A stretch of DNA of 64,000 nt from Subtercola sp. PAMC28395 (GTDB taxonomy: Bacteria > Actinomycetota > Actinomycetes > Actinomycetales > Microbacteriaceae): assembly GCF_018889995.1 (NCBI RefSeq), contig NZ_CP076547.1, positions 2,232,001-2,296,000 on the forward strand, given 5' to 3'. Positions 5,511 to 12,939 of the stretch are shown piece by piece. Under the pieces are notes generated by a model. It made no database searches and was not told the DNA's origin. It worked only from the letters and a program-made list of their open reading frames with translations. Every line of letters starts with the position of its first letter. Position 1 is the stretch's first letter. The translations under genes and the position numbers were made by a program.

Positions 5511-6923
5511 GTGACTGATTCGAGCGAAATACCAGAAGGCCTCAGGCATCTGGTACCAACAACTCGAATCGATGCTCCCAGTGATGCGATCCCTGCTCTC
5601 AGGGCCACTGATGCCGGAATGACGGTGAGCCGCAGAGAACTCCGCATGCGTGAACTCGCCCACTCCGTGACGGCGGCGCCGATTGCTCCGGCCGGTGCGC
5701 CCGCAGCCGAGACGCGGCGTGAACGTCGAATGCGCGAGCTGGCGGGTATGTCGGCAGCGGCTTCGGCTCTCTCTGAGGCACCCGCCGCTGCGACTCCGGT
5801 GACTGCGATTTCGGTGCCCGAGATTCTTGCAACCGAGATTCCCGCAACTGCACGAGCTCTTCCACGAGCGGCGACTTTCGCAGTGCCCACGGCTTCAGTA
5901 CCCACGGCTTCAGTACCGACAGATTCTGCGCCGACAGTTGCCGTGCCGACAGCTGCGGTAGCCACGGCCGCCGTGCCGACCGTCAGCGTGTCGATCTCGG
6001 CAGCGCCGATCGCCTCGATGCCGACAGCGACAGCAGCTGCATCCGCCGCCGCGCCCCGGATCGAGAGACTGACTGGCGCGACAGAGCCCCGCCGGGCTGG
6101 AGCGTCCATTCGCCACACTGCCCCGGGGCCGGCGGCCCGGCCCAATCACAAGCATCGCGGTGCCGGTCCACGGGATCGCAAGCGCACAATCGCGAGCACC
6201 GTCGTCATGGTGGCAACGGCCGGTCTGGTCGCCACCCTGGCACTTCCGGCCTACGCCTACTCGGATTCGAATTCCGTGACCAATGCCAACCTCTCTGCGT
6301 CGAGCCAGCTCGGTATCCAGAGCCTCACCGTCTCCGGTATCAACGGCCAGACGTCGCTTCGCGACGGGTACACGACAACCGGCGACATTGCCGCCATGGA
6401 TTCCACCACAGGTTCCACCGTTTCTCCCACAGTGCAGGCGCTGGCGGCCGAACTGGTCGCCGATGTGGCTGCCGGCAAGCTGGTCGGTTCGGTTCCTGAT
6501 CACATCAAGGAGATCCGCAACCTCGCGAACGGTCAGGCTGTCAACGGCTGCGGGGTTGACTACCGTGTGCTTCAGACCATCAAAGTGGCCGTGGACAACT
6601 TCAGCAAGGTCGGCGTGAGTGACATCAATCGCCACTGCACGGGCCAGATCGAGGGGGCGGGCACAGCGTCGTCCCACTATGCCAACGGTGGCGGTCACGC
6701 GGTCGACTTCTACATTCTGAACGGTCACGGACTCACCGGCGCAGATGCCGACTCGCTCAAGCTCATCCGGCTTCTCGACCCGCTCGTTCCTGCCGGCACG
6801 AATGTCGGCCAGGCCGAATGCGGCCGTTCGATCTCGTTGAGCAACATGGTGCAGTTCGACGACACCTGCACCCACCTTCACATCGACTTCGGTGCTGCCC
6901 GAGGCGTGAGCCTCGGCAATTAG
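5511..6923 (+). CDS. membrane-anchored or exported M15-like peptidase-domain protein
   Basis: 470 aa. Residues 1-225 form a cytoplasmic-looking, disordered Ala/Pro/Thr-rich region with two RRExRMRELA motifs and VPTAS-type repeats. A single hydrophobic segment follows (about 226-247) and ends in AYA, a possible signal-peptidase site. The outer part (about 250-470) contains SSHYANGGGHAVDF (H389, D399) and THLHIDF (H455, H457). This spacing resembles the Zn-binding pattern of M15 D-Ala-D-Ala or VanY-type peptidases (SxHxxGxAxD, then HxH), with a three-residue insertion. A role in peptidoglycan trimming is likely but unproven. GTG 5511 is preceded by AGGAG. Tandem copies of its last codons follow the stop. 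Confidence 0.75.
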   Translation: MTDSSEIPEGLRHLVPTTRIDAPSDAIPALRATDAGMTVSRRELRMRELAHSVTAAPIAPAGAPAAETRRERRMRELAGMSAAASALSEAPAAATPVTAISVPEILATEIPATARALPRAATFAVPTASVPTASVPTDSAPTVAVPTAAVATAAVPTVSVSISAAPIASMPTATAAASAAAPRIERLTGATEPRRAGASIRHTAPGPAARPNHKHRGAGPRDRKRTIASTVVMVATAGLVATLALPAYAYSDSNSVTNANLSASSQLGIQSLTVSGINGQTSLRDGYTTTGDIAAMDSTTGSTVSPTVQALAAELVADVAAGKLVGSVPDHIKEIRNLANGQAVNGCGVDYRVLQTIKVAVDNFSKVGVSDINRHCTGQIEGAGTASSHYANGGGHAVDFYILNGHGLTGADADSLKLIRLLDPLVPAGTNVGQAECGRSISLSNMVQFDDTCTHLHIDFGAARGVSLGN

Positions 6924-7094
6924 CGCAGGCGTGAGCCTCGGCAACTAGCGCAGGCGTGAGCCTCGGCAACTAGCGCAGGCGTGAGCCTCAGCAACTAGCG
7001 CAGGCGTGAGCCTCAGCAATTAGCGCAGGCGTGAGCCTCGGCAACTAGCGCAGCCGTCAGGTGGTTCAGGCGTGAGCCTCAGCAGCTGTCGTCA
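6903..7094. repeat. 25-bp tandem repeats copying the 3' end of the upstream gene
   Basis: Six contiguous 25-bp units (6903, 6928, 6953, 6978, 7003, 7028) of the form GGCGTGAGCCTCGGCAACTA plus GCGCA. A decayed seventh copy begins at 7069 after 16 unrelated bases. Unit 1 is coding: it spells the last residues (GVSLGN) and the stop codon of the M15-like gene. Units differ only at a few positions (CGG/CAG, AAT/AAC). There are no spacers, so this is not a CRISPR array. Confidence 0.95.
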
Positions 7095-7133
7095 GCACCT
7101 CACCCTCAGAGCCAGGTTCAAACCGCACTCCAC

Positions 7134-7796
7134 TCACCTGAGGCCTCCGGGGACAGGCTGGGGGCACTGCCTGTTGATGGCCGCCCACTCCGATTCGGGC
7201 ATGTTCTGACTGAGCGTCGCGAGGTCTGACCCCGCGACGGCGGACCACGGGTGAGTGTCGTACTCGTCGAGGAATGTCTGGAGGGTCGGCGGTTCACCGA
7301 CGGTGTACCCGTGATTCTGAAGGCACGTTCGTTCGGCGAGTTCGGCTTCGTAGAGCAGATTCTTCTGCCGGGCATCGACAGGGAATTCGGCCGTGACAAC
7401 CTGGTTGCACTGCCAGGTGTCTTTCACGTAGAGCTCATACTGTTCGGCGGGGATCGTGGCGCTCGACGCTTCGATTGCCCCGTCGTCGGTCACGGTAACC
7501 TGCCAACCGTGTTCGGTGAGGCAGTGGTAGAGCGCATCGATGACCGGTGAGCCACTGATGGTCAGTCTTGTCGGATCATGAATGACCGGTACGGGCTCTG
7601 ACGGCGACAGCGCGGGCGCTGTGCTCGCGCAGCCCGTCAGGATGGCGACAGCAGCGAGCACTGCGGCGCCGGTGAGCGTTAGGGAGCCGGTGAGCACTGC
7701 ATTACCGGCAGGGCGAAGCGCTCTGCTGGGTTGCCTGGCGACGCGCCGATCGGATGATTGTGGCGGAAAAGCATGAGGCATATAGTGAGGATTCAT
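7134..7796 (-). CDS. putative lipoprotein
   Basis: 220 aa from ATG 7796. Residues 33-52 are hydrophobic and run into the lipobox LTGC (53-56), so the protein is probably diacylated on C56 and held on the outer face of the membrane. The mature part is about 165 aa with four more cysteines (CLTEHGW, WQCNQ, RTCLQ, RQCPQ), perhaps two disulfides. I do not recognise the domain. In-frame codons extend to 7919, but the upstream part looks non-coding; an ATG at 7781 is an alternative start. It is divergent from the secreted small protein at 7919 and may belong to the same locus. Confidence 0.72.
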   Translation of the reverse strand: MNPHYMPHAFPPQSSDRRVARQPSRALRPAGNAVLTGSLTLTGAAVLAAVAILTGCASTAPALSPSEPVPVIHDPTRLTISGSPVIDALYHCLTEHGWQVTVTDDGAIEASSATIPAEQYELYVKDTWQCNQVVTAEFPVDARQKNLLYEAELAERTCLQNHGYTVGEPPTLQTFLDEYDTHPWSAVAGSDLATLSQNMPESEWAAINRQCPQPVPGGLR

Positions 7797-7918
7797 CACC
7801 ACCAGAATCCCACTGAATTCACCCACCGTCAACCCTCTGCCTAGCCCTGGCTTATTCCGCAGGACGGTCGTCGGGAGCGCTGTGGCGCGGCCAGCAGTGG
7901 GCAACGAAAGGAACAACA

Positions 7919-8242
7919 ATGAAGATCATTCCAGGCGCTCTAGCGGTGCTTGCCATCACTGGCACCGTGGTGCTCTGCGGCGCTGCGGGCGCGAACGCGA
8001 ACTCGGCGAATTTCGGCTCGCAGGTGTGCGGATTCGGTGGTCCGTCGGCAGCCTCGACCGCCTATGTGAACGGCACGAGCATCCATCATCACCAGGCCAA
8101 CGCGGTCGACTGGTCGAGTCGCACCTTCGGGGCGGGATTTCACCGCTTCTCCTCGGGAAATGGGGTCGTCACGATGCAGATCAGTTTTCCCACCGGCACG
8201 GAGACGGGCTACGCATTCTCGTGCGCAGACGGGTCGTTCTGA
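7919..8242 (+). CDS. small secreted two-cysteine protein (candidate bacteriocin-like peptide)
   Basis: 107 aa with a clear Sec signal peptide: MKII, a hydrophobic core (about 6-22), then GANANS with a likely cut after ANA (about residue 28). The mature part is about 80 aa, with one Cys near each end (VCGFGG and FSCADG, a possible disulfide), a SIHHHQANAVDW motif and a Gly/Phe-rich core. GAAAGG lies just before ATG 7919. The order small secreted protein - peptidoglycan-binding adaptor - ABC ATPase - FtsX-like permease is what I would expect for lactococcin-972-type loci in actinobacteria. The peptide itself shows only weak likeness to that family, so the bacteriocin role is inference. Confidence 0.7.
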   Translation: MKIIPGALAVLAITGTVVLCGAAGANANSANFGSQVCGFGGPSAASTAYVNGTSIHHHQANAVDWSSRTFGAGFHRFSSGNGVVTMQISFPTGTETGYAFSCADGSF

Positions 8243-8336
8243 GGCCTGGTGTCTGCGCACACCGCTGGGGAGATCGCACGAGCGACCCACCCGATGATCA
8301 GTTTGCCTGAACAAGCATCACGAATGATGAGCGTGA

Positions 8337-8576
8337 ATGAGAGCGGGAATGACGACCAGGAATGACGGGCCTTTCGAGACACTGGCTGATGCCACGACCA
8401 GCGCGCGGCGAAGCCCCGTCGGCCGGGCTCACGCGCTGCAGCTGGCCTGTGCAGAAGCGGGCGTTTCGCTCGGCCGGTTCGACAGGCGGGTACTCGACGA
8501 GGTCAGCGCCTTCGATACGGAGGTGGTGTGGGTCCTGGCGGCCATCATCCGCAGGGCAGGGGGGTCAAACTCATGA
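8337..8576 (+). CDS. small unknown protein in the export operon
   Basis: 79 aa (75 aa if ATG 8349 is used). It is charged and mostly alpha-helical in character, with no signal peptide, and a short hydrophobic stretch (VVWVLAAII) near the C-terminus. I do not recognise a family. Its stop TGA overlaps the ATG of the adaptor gene (8573-8576), which suggests real translation and coupling. AGCGGGA precedes ATG 8349. It may be a regulator or an immunity-type partner, but nothing in the sequence settles this. Confidence 0.6.
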   Translation: MRAGMTTRNDGPFETLADATTSARRSPVGRAHALQLACAEAGVSLGRFDRRVLDEVSAFDTEVVWVLAAIIRRAGGSNS

Positions 8577-9655
8577 GTTACCGCACCGCTCGGGCAGCAC
8601 GCCCGTGGGCCCTCGTGGCGATCGCCGTCGTCGGTCTCGCGGGTGCGTGCTCGGTCACTGCCTGGGCAGCTGTGACAGTCGCAGCGCCCGTAGACGCGGG
8701 CCCCGCGCAGGCAGGGTATGCCATTGCCGATGCTGTTGAGGGTGAAGTGAGCGCTCACCTCACCCTCAACGTCTCTGCCTCGTGGCCTACCTCGCTCCTT
8801 GGTGTGAATCGAGCTGAGGGCATCGTCACAACGGTCGATCTTGTTCCCGGCCAGCCGGTTGCCCAGGGTACGCAGGTGTATTCGGTGAATCTCCGGCCGG
8901 TCGTCGTGGCCTCGGGCGACGTGCCGGCCTTCCGGATGATCGCAAGAGGCTCGCGCGGAGCCGATGTTTCCCAGCTTCAGGAGATGTTGCGTGCGGAAGG
9001 ATTCTTCGACGCAGAACCTGACGGTTTCGCAGGAGCAGGCACCGTCGAGGCCGTCTCCCTGTGGCAGTCGTCTCTTGGTCTCGTGCCGACCGGCGAGGTG
9101 CTGCCCGCAGATGTCATCTTCGTTCCCAATCTTCCTGGTCGACTCGCGGTCAGGGCTGAGACCGTTTTTCGAGGGGTCACCCTGGTCGGCGGCGAGCAGG
9201 TCCTTCTCGGTCTCGGAGATGCGCCACAGTTCACGCTCCCGGTGAGTGAGGCACAATCCGCCACCATACCGAAGTCGAGCGGTGTGGAGATCGATGACGG
9301 GGGGCGCACCTGGCACGGTATTGTCGGCGACCGAACATCTCCTGAATCCGGTTCAGTGACCCTTTCGGTCATTCCGCCTGACGGCAGTGCTGAGGTGTGC
9401 GGCACCGAGTGTGACGTGGTGGCACTCGATGGGCAGACACTTCTCACCTCGCGCGTTGTCATTGTGCCCGCCGTCACCGGCACCGTCGTTCCGTCTGCAG
9501 CGCTGCAGACCGATGCCCAGCAGGCACTCTCGGTTGTCGACGAATCCGGGGTGGCTCACCCCGTCACTGTGCGTGCACAGGCCCACGGGCAGTCAGTGGT
9601 GACGGGCATCACGCCCGGACTCGCGATTCGTATTCCCGAAGTGGCGCCGCAGTGA
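8573..9655 (+). CDS. exported adaptor with a peptidoglycan-binding domain (MacA/HlyD-like)
   Basis: 360 aa. An N-terminal signal or anchor (about 11-33, ending near TAWA) is followed by a short lipoyl-like region (NRAEGIVTTVDLVPGQPVAQG). A PG_binding_1 domain follows (about 122-170; ARGSRGADVSQLQEML, then PDGFAGAGTVEAV). The C-terminal part is a beta-rich region with VVPSAAL and PVTVRA typical of periplasmic adaptor proteins. Such proteins pair with FtsX/MacB-type ABC exporters, and both partners lie directly downstream. ATG 8573 has AGGGGGG upstream and overlaps the previous stop by 4 bp. An in-frame extension to 8528 is unlikely. Confidence 0.82.
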   Translation: MSYRTARAARPWALVAIAVVGLAGACSVTAWAAVTVAAPVDAGPAQAGYAIADAVEGEVSAHLTLNVSASWPTSLLGVNRAEGIVTTVDLVPGQPVAQGTQVYSVNLRPVVVASGDVPAFRMIARGSRGADVSQLQEMLRAEGFFDAEPDGFAGAGTVEAVSLWQSSLGLVPTGEVLPADVIFVPNLPGRLAVRAETVFRGVTLVGGEQVLLGLGDAPQFTLPVSEAQSATIPKSSGVEIDDGGRTWHGIVGDRTSPESGSVTLSVIPPDGSAEVCGTECDVVALDGQTLLTSRVVIVPAVTGTVVPSAALQTDAQQALSVVDESGVAHPVTVRAQAHGQSVVTGITPGLAIRIPEVAPQ

Positions 9656-10296
9656 CCGGCCGCATGCTCGAAACCAGGGAACTCGGGTTCGGCTATGACC
9701 AGAGGTCGTCCCTCTTCGACGGGTACACCGAGTCCTTCGCAGCAGGAGAGATGGTGGCTCTCACCGGCTGCTCCGGCCGCGGCAAATCGACCCTCCTGTA
9801 CCTGCTCGGACTCATGATGAAACCCGACCGGGGCGCCGTCGTTATCAACGGCGCCGACGCCTCCTCGCTCGGAGACGCGGCACGGGCACACCTTCGAGCC
9901 GATCTGATCGGCTTCGTCTTCCAGGACGCGTGCCTGGATTCGACGCGGACGATTATCGACAATGTGCTGGAGACGTGCCTCTATCGCTCTCAACCGCGAT
10001 CCGCGGCCCGGAGCAGGGCGCTGGCCCTTCTGGAGTCCTTCGGTGTCGAGAGCCACGCTGAATCGAGGCCGGCACGGCTCTCGGGTGGCCAGGCCGGGCG
10101 CATAGCACTCTGCCGGGCACTCCTGAATGATCCGGCGATCATCCTGGCAGACGAGCCGACGGGTAATCTCGACGATGCTTCTGCGGCGATTGTGACCGAA
10201 GCGTTCCGTGCGCGAGCAGCTGCAGGCGCGATCGTCGTCGTCGCCACCCACGACTCGACGCTCGTCGCACTCTGCGACCGCCACGTCGTGCTGTGA
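9652..10296 (+). CDS. ABC transporter ATP-binding protein (MacB/LolD-like)
   Basis: 214 aa, a single nucleotide-binding domain: Walker A GCSGRGKST (39-47), Q-loop Q91, signature LSGGQ (143-147), Walker B IILADEPTGNLD with D167/E168, and H-loop H200. The DEPTGNLD pattern places it with the lipoprotein/macrolide/peptide exporters (MacB, LolD, FtsE type). It should drive the permease encoded next, together with the upstream adaptor. GTG 9652 overlaps the adaptor stop by 4 bp, and its own stop overlaps the permease start by 4 bp. Confidence 0.9.
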   Translation: MTGRMLETRELGFGYDQRSSLFDGYTESFAAGEMVALTGCSGRGKSTLLYLLGLMMKPDRGAVVINGADASSLGDAARAHLRADLIGFVFQDACLDSTRTIIDNVLETCLYRSQPRSAARSRALALLESFGVESHAESRPARLSGGQAGRIALCRALLNDPAIILADEPTGNLDDASAAIVTEAFRARAAAGAIVVVATHDSTLVALCDRHVVL

Positions 10297-11456
10297 GGCG
10301 AGCCGTGAGACCAGCGTCCACACATCGGGCCGCCAACCGCTCGGCGCTTCGGTGCGCCGGCGCTCTTCTTCGTGAGGCGATTGCATCCATGCTCGGCCTG
10401 CGAGTCGTTTCGATGACGACAGTCGGAGTCGTTGCGACGCTGTGTTTCACGGTGATGCTCACGACCGGGCGCAACATCGCCGAAAGCGATGCGGTGCTGG
10501 CCAACATCGACCACGTGGGAACGCGTATTCTCCTGGTGCGTGCAGAGGCGGCATCGGGCCTCGACACCCGAGTACTCGACCGCCTGGCACCGTTGCATGG
10601 AGTCGAATGGATCGGAGCGCTGGGACCCGCGAGCGATGTGACGAATGCCGCCATCGAAGGAGGCACAAGAGTCGCGCTTCGGCCTGCGTATGGTACCGGA
10701 TGGCCAATCATGGGCATCGGCGGCCCCGGCGTGGTGCCACCCGGATCCAGAAGGGCGGTGACAACCGTCGACGCAAGGCGGCTTCTCGGCCTGCGCGACG
10801 GAGTCGGCGTTGTGAGAGACGTCCAAAGTGACGAGAACGTCGACGTGATCGGTTCTGTGCCGCTGCCCGAGTATCTCGATTTCGTCGGCCCGGCCGTTCT
10901 GGTGCCTGAACCGTCGATCGCTGATCCTCGTCCGGTCTCGGTACTCATCGTCATCGCTTCAACAGCAGCGCAGGTTGAGGCCCTCACCTCGACGGTGAGT
11001 TCGCTTCTTGCTGTCGACGACGCCACCAAGGTCACGGTCACCTCTGGCGAACAACTGGCTCAGCTTCGTGAGAGAGTCGGCTCCCAACTCGGGGTGTTCG
11101 GCCACGCTTTTGTGCTGGTGGTGTTTCTTGTCGGCGCGGCTCTCGTGGCCATGATTCTCTCGGGCCTTGTCCTGATGCGAAGAAGGGACTTCGGTCGCCG
11201 ACGCGCTCTCGGTGCTTCTCGCAGACTGGTCATCGGGCTGCTGCTCGCAACCGTCGGCCTACAGGCTATGGCCGGCTCGATCGTCGGCAGCGTGGTGGCC
11301 CTGGCGCTCCTCGTCATGCAGGGCAGTCCTGTGCCGTCCCCTGCCTTCTGCACCGCCGTTGTCGTGCTCGCTCTCGTCACGAGTCTCGGTGCAGCGGTCA
11401 TTCCTGCACTGATCGCATCGACCCGGGAGCCGCTTCGTGAGCTTCGTGTGCCCTGA
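10293..11456 (+). CDS. FtsX-like ABC transporter permease
   Basis: 387 aa. One transmembrane helix near the N-terminus (about 40-58) is followed by a roughly 200-residue extracytoplasmic domain and three C-terminal helices (about 270-295, 315-338, 350-372). RRRDFGRRRALGASRR between the second and third helices is the coupling motif of FtsX/MacB permeases. It completes the adaptor-ATPase-permease exporter. Type VII ABC systems of this topology usually extrude lipoproteins, peptides or antibiotics from the outer leaflet rather than import. GTG 10293 overlaps the ATPase stop by 4 bp. Confidence 0.87.
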   Translation: MRRAVRPASTHRAANRSALRCAGALLREAIASMLGLRVVSMTTVGVVATLCFTVMLTTGRNIAESDAVLANIDHVGTRILLVRAEAASGLDTRVLDRLAPLHGVEWIGALGPASDVTNAAIEGGTRVALRPAYGTGWPIMGIGGPGVVPPGSRRAVTTVDARRLLGLRDGVGVVRDVQSDENVDVIGSVPLPEYLDFVGPAVLVPEPSIADPRPVSVLIVIASTAAQVEALTSTVSSLLAVDDATKVTVTSGEQLAQLRERVGSQLGVFGHAFVLVVFLVGAALVAMILSGLVLMRRRDFGRRRALGASRRLVIGLLLATVGLQAMAGSIVGSVVALALLVMQGSPVPSPAFCTAVVVLALVTSLGAAVIPALIASTREPLRELRVP

Positions 11457-11483
11457 CCAGAAGGGGAGCAGGGACTGCAAGAC

Positions 11484-12503
11484 GTGAAAGGGCGGGAAAA
11501 GGGGTGGCGTAGGGTGGATTTCGTGGTCAGCGATATTCGGGCGGGTGATATTCGGGCGAGTGAAATTCGAACCGATGAAACTCGGGCGGGTGAAATTCCA
11601 GCGGATGAGATTCGAGCGGATGAGATTCGACTCAGCGAAGCGCAGCTGGAGGCAGCACAGTTGGCGCACCAGGAGCGTGCCGACGCATTGACGTCGGGCT
11701 GGAGGGAACGCCGCAGTGTGGGTGAGACTCACGCCGTGGATGACTTCATGTTCACGTACTACCCGTTCAAGCCGGCGCTCCTGCGCCGATGGCATCCCGG
11801 TGCTGGTGTACGCCTCGAAGGAGCAGCGGGTCTCGATCGCGCGGAATGGAAGTGGTACAGGCAGAGCCGTGGTACTGATCTGATGGTCGACGCCAGACAG
11901 CTCTTCGAAGCCCGGGCGCAGTCAATCGCGTTCATTTCGCGTCTCATGCAGCGAACGGCTCTGCGCCCAGCCCAGTTCGGTTGCTTCGGCCTGCATGAAT
12001 GGGCGATGGTCTACAAGGTCGCCGATGGCCACGTGCGGCACGAATCCATTCCCCTGCGACTGACGGCAGAACAGACGGACAAGGTCGTCGAGTCCCATCG
12101 CATCAGTTGCTCCCATTTCGACGCGTTTCGCTTCTTCACACCCGAGGCGAGAGGCAGGAACAGCCTGCTGCCGTCGAGAGAGAACCAAGAGTCCTTCGAA
12201 CAGGCCGGGTGCCTGCACGCAGGGATGGATGTCTACAAATGGGCAATCAAACTCGGCCCGATTGTTCCCGGCGTGCTGTTGCTCGACTCGTTCGAACTCG
12301 CCCGGGAGATTCGGCAGGTCGACATGCGAGCGTCGCCGTACGACGTCTCGAGCTTTGGGCTCAGTGCCATCCGTATCGAAACAGCGGAGGGCAAAGCCGA
12401 ATATTCCACGTTCCAGCACGACTTCGCCGCCCGATCGAATATTCTGCGTACTCGCCTTGTCGATTCGATCGCGCGAGCAGAGAGTTTCGCGACAGCTGAG
12501 TGA
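11484..12503 (+). CDS. conserved actinobacterial protein often labelled 3-methyladenine DNA glycosylase
   Basis: 339 aa. VDDFMFTYYPFKPALLRRWHPG (about 86-107) and FGCFGLHEWAMVY are hallmarks of a conserved actinobacterial family. Public annotation commonly calls it 3-methyladenine DNA glycosylase, yet I see no helix-hairpin-helix or AlkA motif, so the enzymatic name is unsafe. Many His/Cys residues (SCSHFDAFRFF, GCLHAGMD) might bind metal. Residues about 16-50 are low-complexity DIRAG/EIRAD repeats coded by 15-bp tandem units, and the true start may be GTG 11514 or further in. It is separated from the exporter operon by 27 bp on the same strand. Confidence 0.75.
   Translation: MKGREKGWRRVDFVVSDIRAGDIRASEIRTDETRAGEIPADEIRADEIRLSEAQLEAAQLAHQERADALTSGWRERRSVGETHAVDDFMFTYYPFKPALLRRWHPGAGVRLEGAAGLDRAEWKWYRQSRGTDLMVDARQLFEARAQSIAFISRLMQRTALRPAQFGCFGLHEWAMVYKVADGHVRHESIPLRLTAEQTDKVVESHRISCSHFDAFRFFTPEARGRNSLLPSRENQESFEQAGCLHAGMDVYKWAIKLGPIVPGVLLLDSFELAREIRQVDMRASPYDVSSFGLSAIRIETAEGKAEYSTFQHDFAARSNILRTRLVDSIARAESFATAE
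11530..11630. repeat. 15-bp tandem repeat coding an N-terminal extension
   Basis: Six to seven degenerate units such as GATATTCGGGCGGGT and GAGATTCGAGCGGAT, in frame with the gene that starts at 11484. They code for [DE]I[RP]A[GD]-type pentapeptides. Confidence 0.8.
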
Positions 12504-12582
12504 TTTCTCGTCGTCGAGGGGGCTGTTCGCCGACGGGACTTTTCGTCGATGGGTCTGTTAGTCGAGGGGTCTATTCGTCGAG
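12500..12582. repeat. degenerate 15-17-bp tandem repeat between convergent genes
   Basis: Four to five decayed units built on TTCGTCGAGGGGTCT run from the stop of the upstream gene through the stop of the S4-protein gene. The short spacer 12504-12570 contains nothing else recognisable. Confidence 0.55.
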
Positions 12583-12939
12583 GGCGCGAAGCTTGTCCAG
12601 CTCGCGGCGTTCACGCTTGGTGGGTCGCCCGGCGCCCCGATCGCGCACGGCGACGAGAGCAATGGTCTCACGTGGCGGTGGTGGTGGTGTCAGATCGACG
12701 AAGCATTCAGCGGCCACGGGAGCTCCCACCCGCTTCAGGACCAGTCGAGCGACGACCACAATGCGATCGAAGCCGGCGGCGCGGATGCGCACTTCATCGC
12801 CGACGTGCAGCGCCTGCGCGGCCTTCACCCGCTCGCCGTTCACACGGACGTGGCCTGCGCGACAGGCGGTCGTGGCTGCGGACCGGGTCTTGAACAGCCG
12901 AACGGCAAATGCCCAGCTGTCGATGCGGGCACTGGACAC
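12571..12939 (-). CDS. S4-domain RNA-binding protein (Hsp15-like)
   Basis: 122 aa from GTG 12939. ARIDSWAFAVRLFKTRSAA followed by GHVRVNGERVKAAQALHVGDEV is a full S4 RNA-binding domain in the Hsp15/YrfH style. In Escherichia coli, Hsp15 binds stalled 50S subunits carrying nascent chains; a similar ribosome-rescue role is inferred. The C-terminal tail is basic (GRPTKRERRELDKL). GGGAGATG lies just before GTG 12939, which is why I prefer it to the in-frame GTG 12975. Confidence 0.85.
   Translation of the reverse strand: MSSARIDSWAFAVRLFKTRSAATTACRAGHVRVNGERVKAAQALHVGDEVRIRAAGFDRIVVVARLVLKRVGAPVAAECFVDLTPPPPPRETIALVAVRDRGAGRPTKRERRELDKLRALDE

Follow-up and report, generated by a model that had tools for sequence, protein, structure and literature searches.

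What does the six-gene island of the soil actinobacterium Subtercola sp. PAMC28395 encode, and why does a small secreted protein stand beside a transporter there? The island lies in a 64,000-nucleotide stretch of contig NZ_CP076547.1 (the window), and comprises a divergent lipoprotein gene (LIPO), a gene for a secreted protein with two cysteines (PEP), a small gene (SM79), and the genes of an adaptor, a MacB-type ATPase, and an FtsX permease (Table 1). An earlier note on this DNA described it as a candidate peptide or bacteriocin export island with a layout like that of lactococcin 972 (L972) loci. The island is related to, yet distinct from, the L972-type loci. We lean towards reading it as an L972-like (bacteriocin-like) antagonism cassette, presumably antibacterial, whose secreted protein is new and variable. 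No title or abstract on this cassette was found in the open-licence literature.

The gene layout given in the earlier note was confirmed, including three 4-bp overlaps, which are read directly as ATGA at 8573, GTGA at 9652, and GTGA at 10293. The combination of a secreted two-Cys protein with a MacB-like ATPase, an FtsX permease, and a peptidoglycan-binding adaptor also held, with the domains confirmed by Pfam and the signal peptide read by eye. PG_binding_1 was the sole Pfam match of the adaptor. FtsX was the sole match of the permease over the cut-off, and no DUF1430 match was found in Pfam; a solved-structure search with the permease gave nothing useful. PEP, SM79, and LIPO had no Pfam match. 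With a separate ATPase, an FtsX-type permease, and an adaptor in one gene row, the island has the make-up of a MacB-type (type VII) tripartite ATP-binding cassette (ABC) system.

How far does the relation to the L972 loci go? The L972 family (PF09683) was found at 37 places in 29 of the 249 Microbacteriaceae genomes sampled, and all 37 loci (L072-L108) were fetched; there was no PF09683 match in the 6 Subtercola genomes of this sample. Profiles from 7 of the L972 loci detected the adaptor in 18/37 and the lipoprotein in 22/37. These loci are of two kinds: 18/37 have a lipoprotein, an adaptor, and an FtsX protein; 14/37 have an L972-type ATPase but neither partner. Among the remainder, four loci of one genus contain the peptide and the lipoprotein only, and 1/37 contains none. 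The chassis of the island, namely lipoprotein, adaptor, ATPase, and FtsX, is homologous to that of the first kind. The Subtercola adaptor profile matched exactly those 18 adaptors among the 1241 plus-strand open reading frames (ORFs) of the L972 loci, and hhalign linked the island FtsX to the L972-locus FtsX (E 9.7e-10). In the ATPase tree (120 rows), 80 rows form the island clade (100/99), and the nearest clade to it consists of 17 rows from L972 loci (100/96), its sister group. The joint clade (96/97) also holds one long-branched row; the ATPases of the other kind of L972 locus, the generic paralogues L040 and L041, and the weak rows L216-L218 fall outside. The widened LIPO family aligned with the L972-locus lipoproteins at hhalign 93.5% (E 2.3e-7). 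When scored alone against the widened LIPO profile, 26/26 of these lipoproteins had E<0.007. Among the 1241 ORFs the profile gave 8 matches at E<=1e-3, all of them L972-locus lipoproteins (8 of the 26 known); reversed-sequence controls had E>=0.5.

Which secreted proteins accompany this chassis elsewhere? Strong adaptor relatives (E<1e-40) were found in 19 genomes besides the 6 Subtercola among the 249, and 23 loci were fetched. They were scanned for ORFs near the adaptor with a signal peptide and two cysteines, early and late in the mature part. This rule was devised after a first look at the 23 loci, and was then left unchanged for later loci. The first 23 loci contained 13 near two-Cys ORFs, in 13/23 loci (132 kb near), versus 3 in 199 kb far from the adaptor. 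The same scan gave 2 matches in 479 kb of L972 loci, and PEP as the sole match in the window. Fifty-seven loci were found in named genomes. The 47 new ones among them had 27 near matches in 25/47 loci, versus 2 far matches (Fisher 7e-7); one near match (L210) seems not to be a real gene, whereas the two far matches resemble family members. After near-copies were merged (ATPase identity at least 97%; 70 loci to 63 groups), a two-Cys ORF was present in 35/63. Among the 70 loci, L145/L146 and L196/L197 overlap, and L216-L218 lie outside the ATPase clade. In a phylum-wide sample, the adaptor was detected in 22/396 genomes at E<=1e-20, and in 5/396, including its own genome, at E<1e-40, with at most 4 copies per genome. 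This sample gave nine loci, of which L226 is identical to L209 and was not recounted. A two-Cys ORF lies near the adaptor in 4 of the 8 further loci, and inside the 14-kb stretch in 6; these proteins are mutually unlike by eye. Over all loci outside Subtercola, a small secreted two-Cys protein stands near the adaptor in 42/78. Several unlike two-Cys proteins were found within one genome, and in some loci the gene lies on the opposite strand or beyond the permease. The neighbourhood comparison proposed in the earlier note thus showed enrichment near the chassis outside Subtercola: two-Cys proteins are genomically associated with it.

Is PEP itself an L972 peptide? It is a small Sec-type secreted protein, as in the L972 family. 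The signal peptide (about residues 1-27) is conserved in 13 aligned sequences, and the mature part of about 80 aa contains Cys37 and Cys102; the signal peptide was called by eye and by a simple script rule, not by a trained predictor, and the cleavage site by eye. The profile check suggested in the earlier note was negative: the 107-aa product had no match to PF09683 or to the L972 models of NCBIfam, with E up to 10 asked. Of 16 two-Cys proteins compared with Pfam and NCBIfam, none matched L972 (E up to 10 asked; filters drop most matches above about 0.1). Mature PEP against mature L972 profiles gave hhalign 0.1%. This mature-part test replaced a comparison with the signal peptides included, which had reached 83% over the leader region. 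Therefore PEP is not an L972 member by sequence, and plain membership was rejected. The L972 likeness proposed earlier stands for the chassis (adaptor, LIPO, and ATPase homology) and fails for the peptide. The suggestion of a possibly new peptide class is borne out. PEP had no significant match in Pfam, NCBIfam, PADLOC, or PHROG; the PADLOC and PHROG scans of the small proteins gave nothing.

PEP might instead be a far-diverged true L972 bacteriocin, which kept the fold and the target (lipid II) while sequence similarity eroded. The shared chassis would fit such a history, and UniRef names two PEP relatives 'Lactococcin 972 family bacteriocin'. According to the excerpts of PMC12345188, mediterrocin was placed in the L972 family with an identity of 18% and an AlphaFold model that is similar. 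The top match of the two-Cys profile among the 1241 L972-locus ORFs is an L972 peptide, but only at E 0.085. This profile scores L972 peptides at no more than 4.6 bits, with one exception at 9.8; the L972 peptide profile was built with two L972 peptides left out. The 0/16 result and the mature-part value of 0.1% argue against this explanation, and we regard it as somewhat unlikely.

The membership of PEP in the wider two-Cys family is supported, although the support is modest. An AlphaFold model of PEP from Subtercola sequences only had a mean predicted local distance difference test score (pLDDT) of 48.5, and the fold search with that model was uninformative. A family-guided model, with two-Cys proteins of other loci added, reached pLDDT 80.3 with seven predicted beta strands; any added beta-rich sequences might have raised the score from 48.5 to some extent. 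The two-Cys profile consists of 39 sequences, leaving out the probable non-gene of L210 at -1360, duplicates, and the core Subtercola peptides. In a solved-structure search with the family profile, the best match (E 0.0099) covered the signal peptide only. The structures 2lgn and 9hkj were not among the matches listed in later fold searches, which excludes nothing.

What does the lipoprotein contribute? LIPO was found in 19/249 Microbacteriaceae genomes, 18 of these being among the 25 with a strong adaptor (best candidates per genome were scored in both counts). LIPO-type genes occur in 63/67 related loci outside Subtercola, in 90 copies, and 17 of the 63 loci have 2-6 copies; they also occur in 8/8 further loci of the phylum-wide sample. 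The three orphan LIPO-family genes looked at (L228, L229, and L230) have no chassis genes nearby; the two-Cys scan gave one doubtful ORF near L228 and none at L229 or L230. By analogy, such multiplied copies and orphans resemble the behaviour of immunity genes. The earlier note had offered the lipoprotein or the small ORF for immunity or regulation. The first part stands in so far as LIPO belongs to the unit; SM79 does not appear to be general to the class. Of the 28 database matches of SM79, 20 are close (E<=1.6e-22; 8 named Subtercola, with metagenomic sequences and the window's own among the rest) and 8 are remote. Subtercola is the only named genus among them, and there was no match in the 23 related loci outside Subtercola. 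SM79 was seen only in Subtercola among named sources, and therefore seems not to serve immunity or regulation across the class; a general role was rejected.

How is the island maintained within its own genus? LIPO, PEP, SM79, adaptor, ATPase, and FtsX occur together in 12/12 genus genomes searched. Small-protein homologues regularly lacking the exporter, which the earlier note had named as a warning sign, were not the pattern; the opposite was seen, with PEP beside the chassis in all 12. PEP identity ranges from 65 to 98% across the genus genomes, and the database relatives of PEP that carry a name are Subtercola. Within the island, conservation is highest for PEP, with 98% identity to the nearest relative, versus 79-84% for LIPO and the transporter genes. 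The ratio of nonsynonymous to synonymous substitution rates (dN/dS) between the window and the nearest relative is 0.022 for PEP, 0.119 for SM79, and 0.30-0.33 for the three transporter genes. These values indicate that PEP and SM79 are both real genes; a hypervariable PEP within Subtercola was ruled out by the value of 0.022. Among the 10 unsplit main copies, PEP and SM79 are separated by 3-94 bp (by 3 bp in 4 genomes), the SM79-adaptor gap is -49 to +23, and the adaptor-ATPase gap is -4 in 9/10; the FtsX starts were chosen by script and are uncertain.

The same observations bear on a reading in which the island is a module for envelope upkeep or signalling. In Subtercola, PEP would be a conserved secreted protein that acts as a ligand or as part of the matrix, with LIPO as the receptor, and an FtsEX- or Bce-like ABC system would relay or manage envelope stress, with no antagonism. 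Such a role would fit the conservation of the island at one place throughout the genus, the strong purifying selection acting on PEP, and the tightly conserved candidate promoter. MacB-type proteins are also described as including sensing and regulatory complexes in the excerpts of PMC5985334. However, the loci are accessory outside Subtercola, occurring in 19/243 other sampled family genomes (adaptor E<1e-40). There are up to 4 loci per genome, and the second copy in S. boreus groups with other genera. Moreover, the secreted protein differs from locus to locus, and the lipoproteins form arrays and orphans. An envelope module is considered unlikely.

How might an antagonism cassette of this kind work? 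PEP would be made as a pre-protein and, judging from its signal peptide, leave through Sec. It is predicted to fold into a small disulfide-closed beta-sandwich, and may act on the envelope of related bacteria. LIPO would sit at the external surface of the membrane; adaptor, ATPase, and FtsX would form a machine that is tied to peptidoglycan and works by mechanotransmission. Lipoprotein and ABC machine probably serve self-protection: they might guard the producer by capturing PEP, or the target of PEP, and removing it from the wall zone. In the excerpts of PMC4055356, the ABC genes orf2-orf3 of Lcn972 are called immunity genes. The two-Cys family, separate and highly variable, may have taken the place of the L972 peptide on the chassis.

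The earlier note had proposed peptide export through the ABC system, and this claim was not supported. A dedicated PEP exporter would be suggested by the tight single row in which PEP stands with the ABC genes. In the export-model comparison suggested earlier, the model that the ATPase matched best in NCBIfam was TIGR03608 (putative bacteriocin export ATPase); the score of 155.4 bits is far below the cut-off of 254.85. Controls from two true L972 loci were below the cut-off as well (one at 196.6, the other not listed at E<=1e-30). By eye, the signal peptide of PEP is of the ordinary Sec type, and in some loci the two-Cys gene sits on the opposite strand or past the permease. MacB-type ABC proteins act on the outer side of the membrane and do not transfer substrates across their own membrane, as stated in the excerpts of PMC5985334. 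The authors of the mediterrocin study likewise favour Sec over a specialised transporter for export (PMC12345188, excerpts). The ABC system as a simple exporter was thus rejected on the PEP signal peptide and the MacB-type mechanism, and a dedicated exporter seems highly improbable. A resistance module against outside antimicrobial peptides, with PEP as a decoy or sensor ligand, is also judged very unlikely. The excerpts of PMC5985334 link MacB-like systems with adaptors to the removal of peptides and xenobiotics in Gram-positives, and report that the YknX adaptor binds peptidoglycan. However, such a module leaves unexplained why different secreted proteins travel with the chassis.

Several results weigh against the antagonism cassette. 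No killing or immunity domain was recognised, and 36/78 related loci have no near two-Cys protein under the scan rule. PEP joins the wider two-Cys family weakly by sequence: its held-out score of 8.1 bits was reached by 100/5000 Cys-fixed shuffles, the score of the best of 11 PEP orthologues by 7/5000, and hhalign gave 8.8%. The Subtercola LIPOs alone reach only 2% against the L972-locus lipoproteins, and the value of 93.5% is obtained only with the wider LIPO family. By hmmsearch, the FtsX profile fails to detect the L972-locus FtsX. The chief objection is that the island is core in Subtercola (12/12) with PEP as its most constrained gene, unlike an arms-race toxin; a fixed, constrained PEP would be equally in keeping with a core role in the envelope.

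How does the cassette compare with known systems? It shares with the lipoprotein kind of Microbacteriaceae L972 loci a homologous lipoprotein, adaptor, ATPase, and FtsX, and a small Sec-type secreted protein alongside. It differs in that the secreted protein is not detectably L972, a 79-aa gene is added, the ATPases are 31-40% identical, and the lipoprotein is divergent in Subtercola. In the loci of Lcn972, streptococcin B, and mediterrocin, an ABC ATPase likewise adjoins a small secreted protein (PMC4055356, PMC11796350, PMC12345188, excerpts). Mediterrocin carries a Sec-type signal peptide and is unmodified (PMC12345188, excerpts). In these three loci, the partner is a multi-transmembrane protein (DUF1430 in mediterrocin), the peptide family differs from PEP, and the excerpts of the three papers do not mention an adaptor or lipoprotein. 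The MacAB-type tripartite systems YknXYZ and SpMacAB have the same set of adaptor, ATPase, and MacB-type permease, and share peptidoglycan binding by the adaptor (YknX; PMC5985334, excerpts); the island chassis, in contrast, travels with a dedicated secreted two-Cys protein and Cys-rich lipoproteins. As a tentative but serious possibility, there might be a large actinobacterial superfamily of antagonism cassettes, with a shared chassis, swapped warheads of little or no kinship (L972 peptides in one branch, two-Cys beta-sandwich proteins in its sister), and arrayed, exchangeable immunity lipoproteins, in which the Subtercola cassette became fixed as a core trait. If so, actinobacteria would hold uncharted secreted antibacterial proteins missed by current models, because 0/16 tested members have a significant Pfam or NCBIfam match. 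One chassis under two secreted-protein families would also make the roles of lipoprotein and ABC machine separable in a soil bacterium.

Two candidate promoters were located upstream of PEP. In 11 aligned Subtercola upstream regions (L033 was left out), the TATAGT of the candidate PEP operon promoter is invariant and the TTGTGG nearly so; this block overlaps the first LIPO codons. A generic sigma-70 consensus scan of 7000-12600, which demands a better -35, found no promoter. On the divergent side, GTCAA on the plus strand (TTGAC on the other strand, facing LIPO) is invariant in the 11 aligned sequences, and the spacing suggests that the LIPO transcript is possibly leaderless. The listed LIPO ORF opens at 7919; the start in Table 1 is common to 10/12 orthologues.

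Table 1. Positions of the island genes, candidate promoters, and adjoining features in the window.
Feature	Position	Strand	Description	Basis
470-aa protein	5511-6923	+	C-terminal pattern SHY..GGGHAVDF...CTHLHIDF	Pfam match insignificant
Tandem repeat	6902-7057		25-bp unit, 6.2 copies, 95% matches; end of 470-aa gene, before LIPO	
LIPO	7134-7796	-	about 220 aa, Cys-rich lipoprotein, lipobox LTGC; proposed self-protection or receptor role	orthologue alignment
Candidate PEP operon promoter	7758..7786	+	TTGTGG - 17 nt - TATAGT	
Candidate divergent LIPO promoter	7804..7832	-	TTGACG - 17 nt - GATTCT; 7 nt before LIPO ATG	
PEP	7919-8242	+	107 aa, secreted two-Cys protein	ORF translation, alignment, family-guided model
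SM79	8337-8576	+	72-80 aa cytosolic protein, 79 aa here	alignment of 12 orthologues
Adaptor	8573-9655	+	360 aa, MacA-like, PG_binding_1 domain	PF01471 E 1.6e-10; distinct subfamily
ATPase	9652-10296	+	214 aa, MacB/LolD-type ABC	PF00005 (ABC_tran) E 1.4e-26; tree
Permease	10293-11456	+	387 aa, FtsX-like (MacB-type)	PF02687 E 8.4e-8
339-aa protein	11484-12503	+	family unknown; 15-bp repeat array near start	

The surroundings of the island are conserved to different degrees. On the right flank, genes for U339, S4-like, U540, and DegP-like proteins follow the island in 12/12 genus genomes, and the 339-aa protein adjoins it in all of them. The left flank varies more: LIPO is adjoined by the 470-aa gene in 11/12, a DnaJ-like gene is present in 10/12, and an aldo-keto reductase gene in 8/12, one of these regions ending early. 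The C-terminal part of the 470-aa protein has 71-94% identity in 10/11 other genus genomes and is absent from L034; its pattern resembles that of M15-type peptidases.

Some copies depart from the common arrangement. In one genome the island is divided between two contigs and its adaptor is truncated. Frame breaks were seen in the FtsX gene of L035 (about 8.75-8.86 kb, two frames) and in the adaptor gene of L231 (6428-6786), and PEP of L033 differs at the N-terminus; these may be decay or assembly faults. A Clavibacter sp. plasmid (NZ_CP083440.1) is listed as encoding a 40% identical adaptor, and the chassis system may be plasmid-borne there. S. boreus carries a second copy of the system (L029/L188); the ATPase of this copy clusters with those of other genera, and by eye its two-Cys protein is similar to the one in L142.

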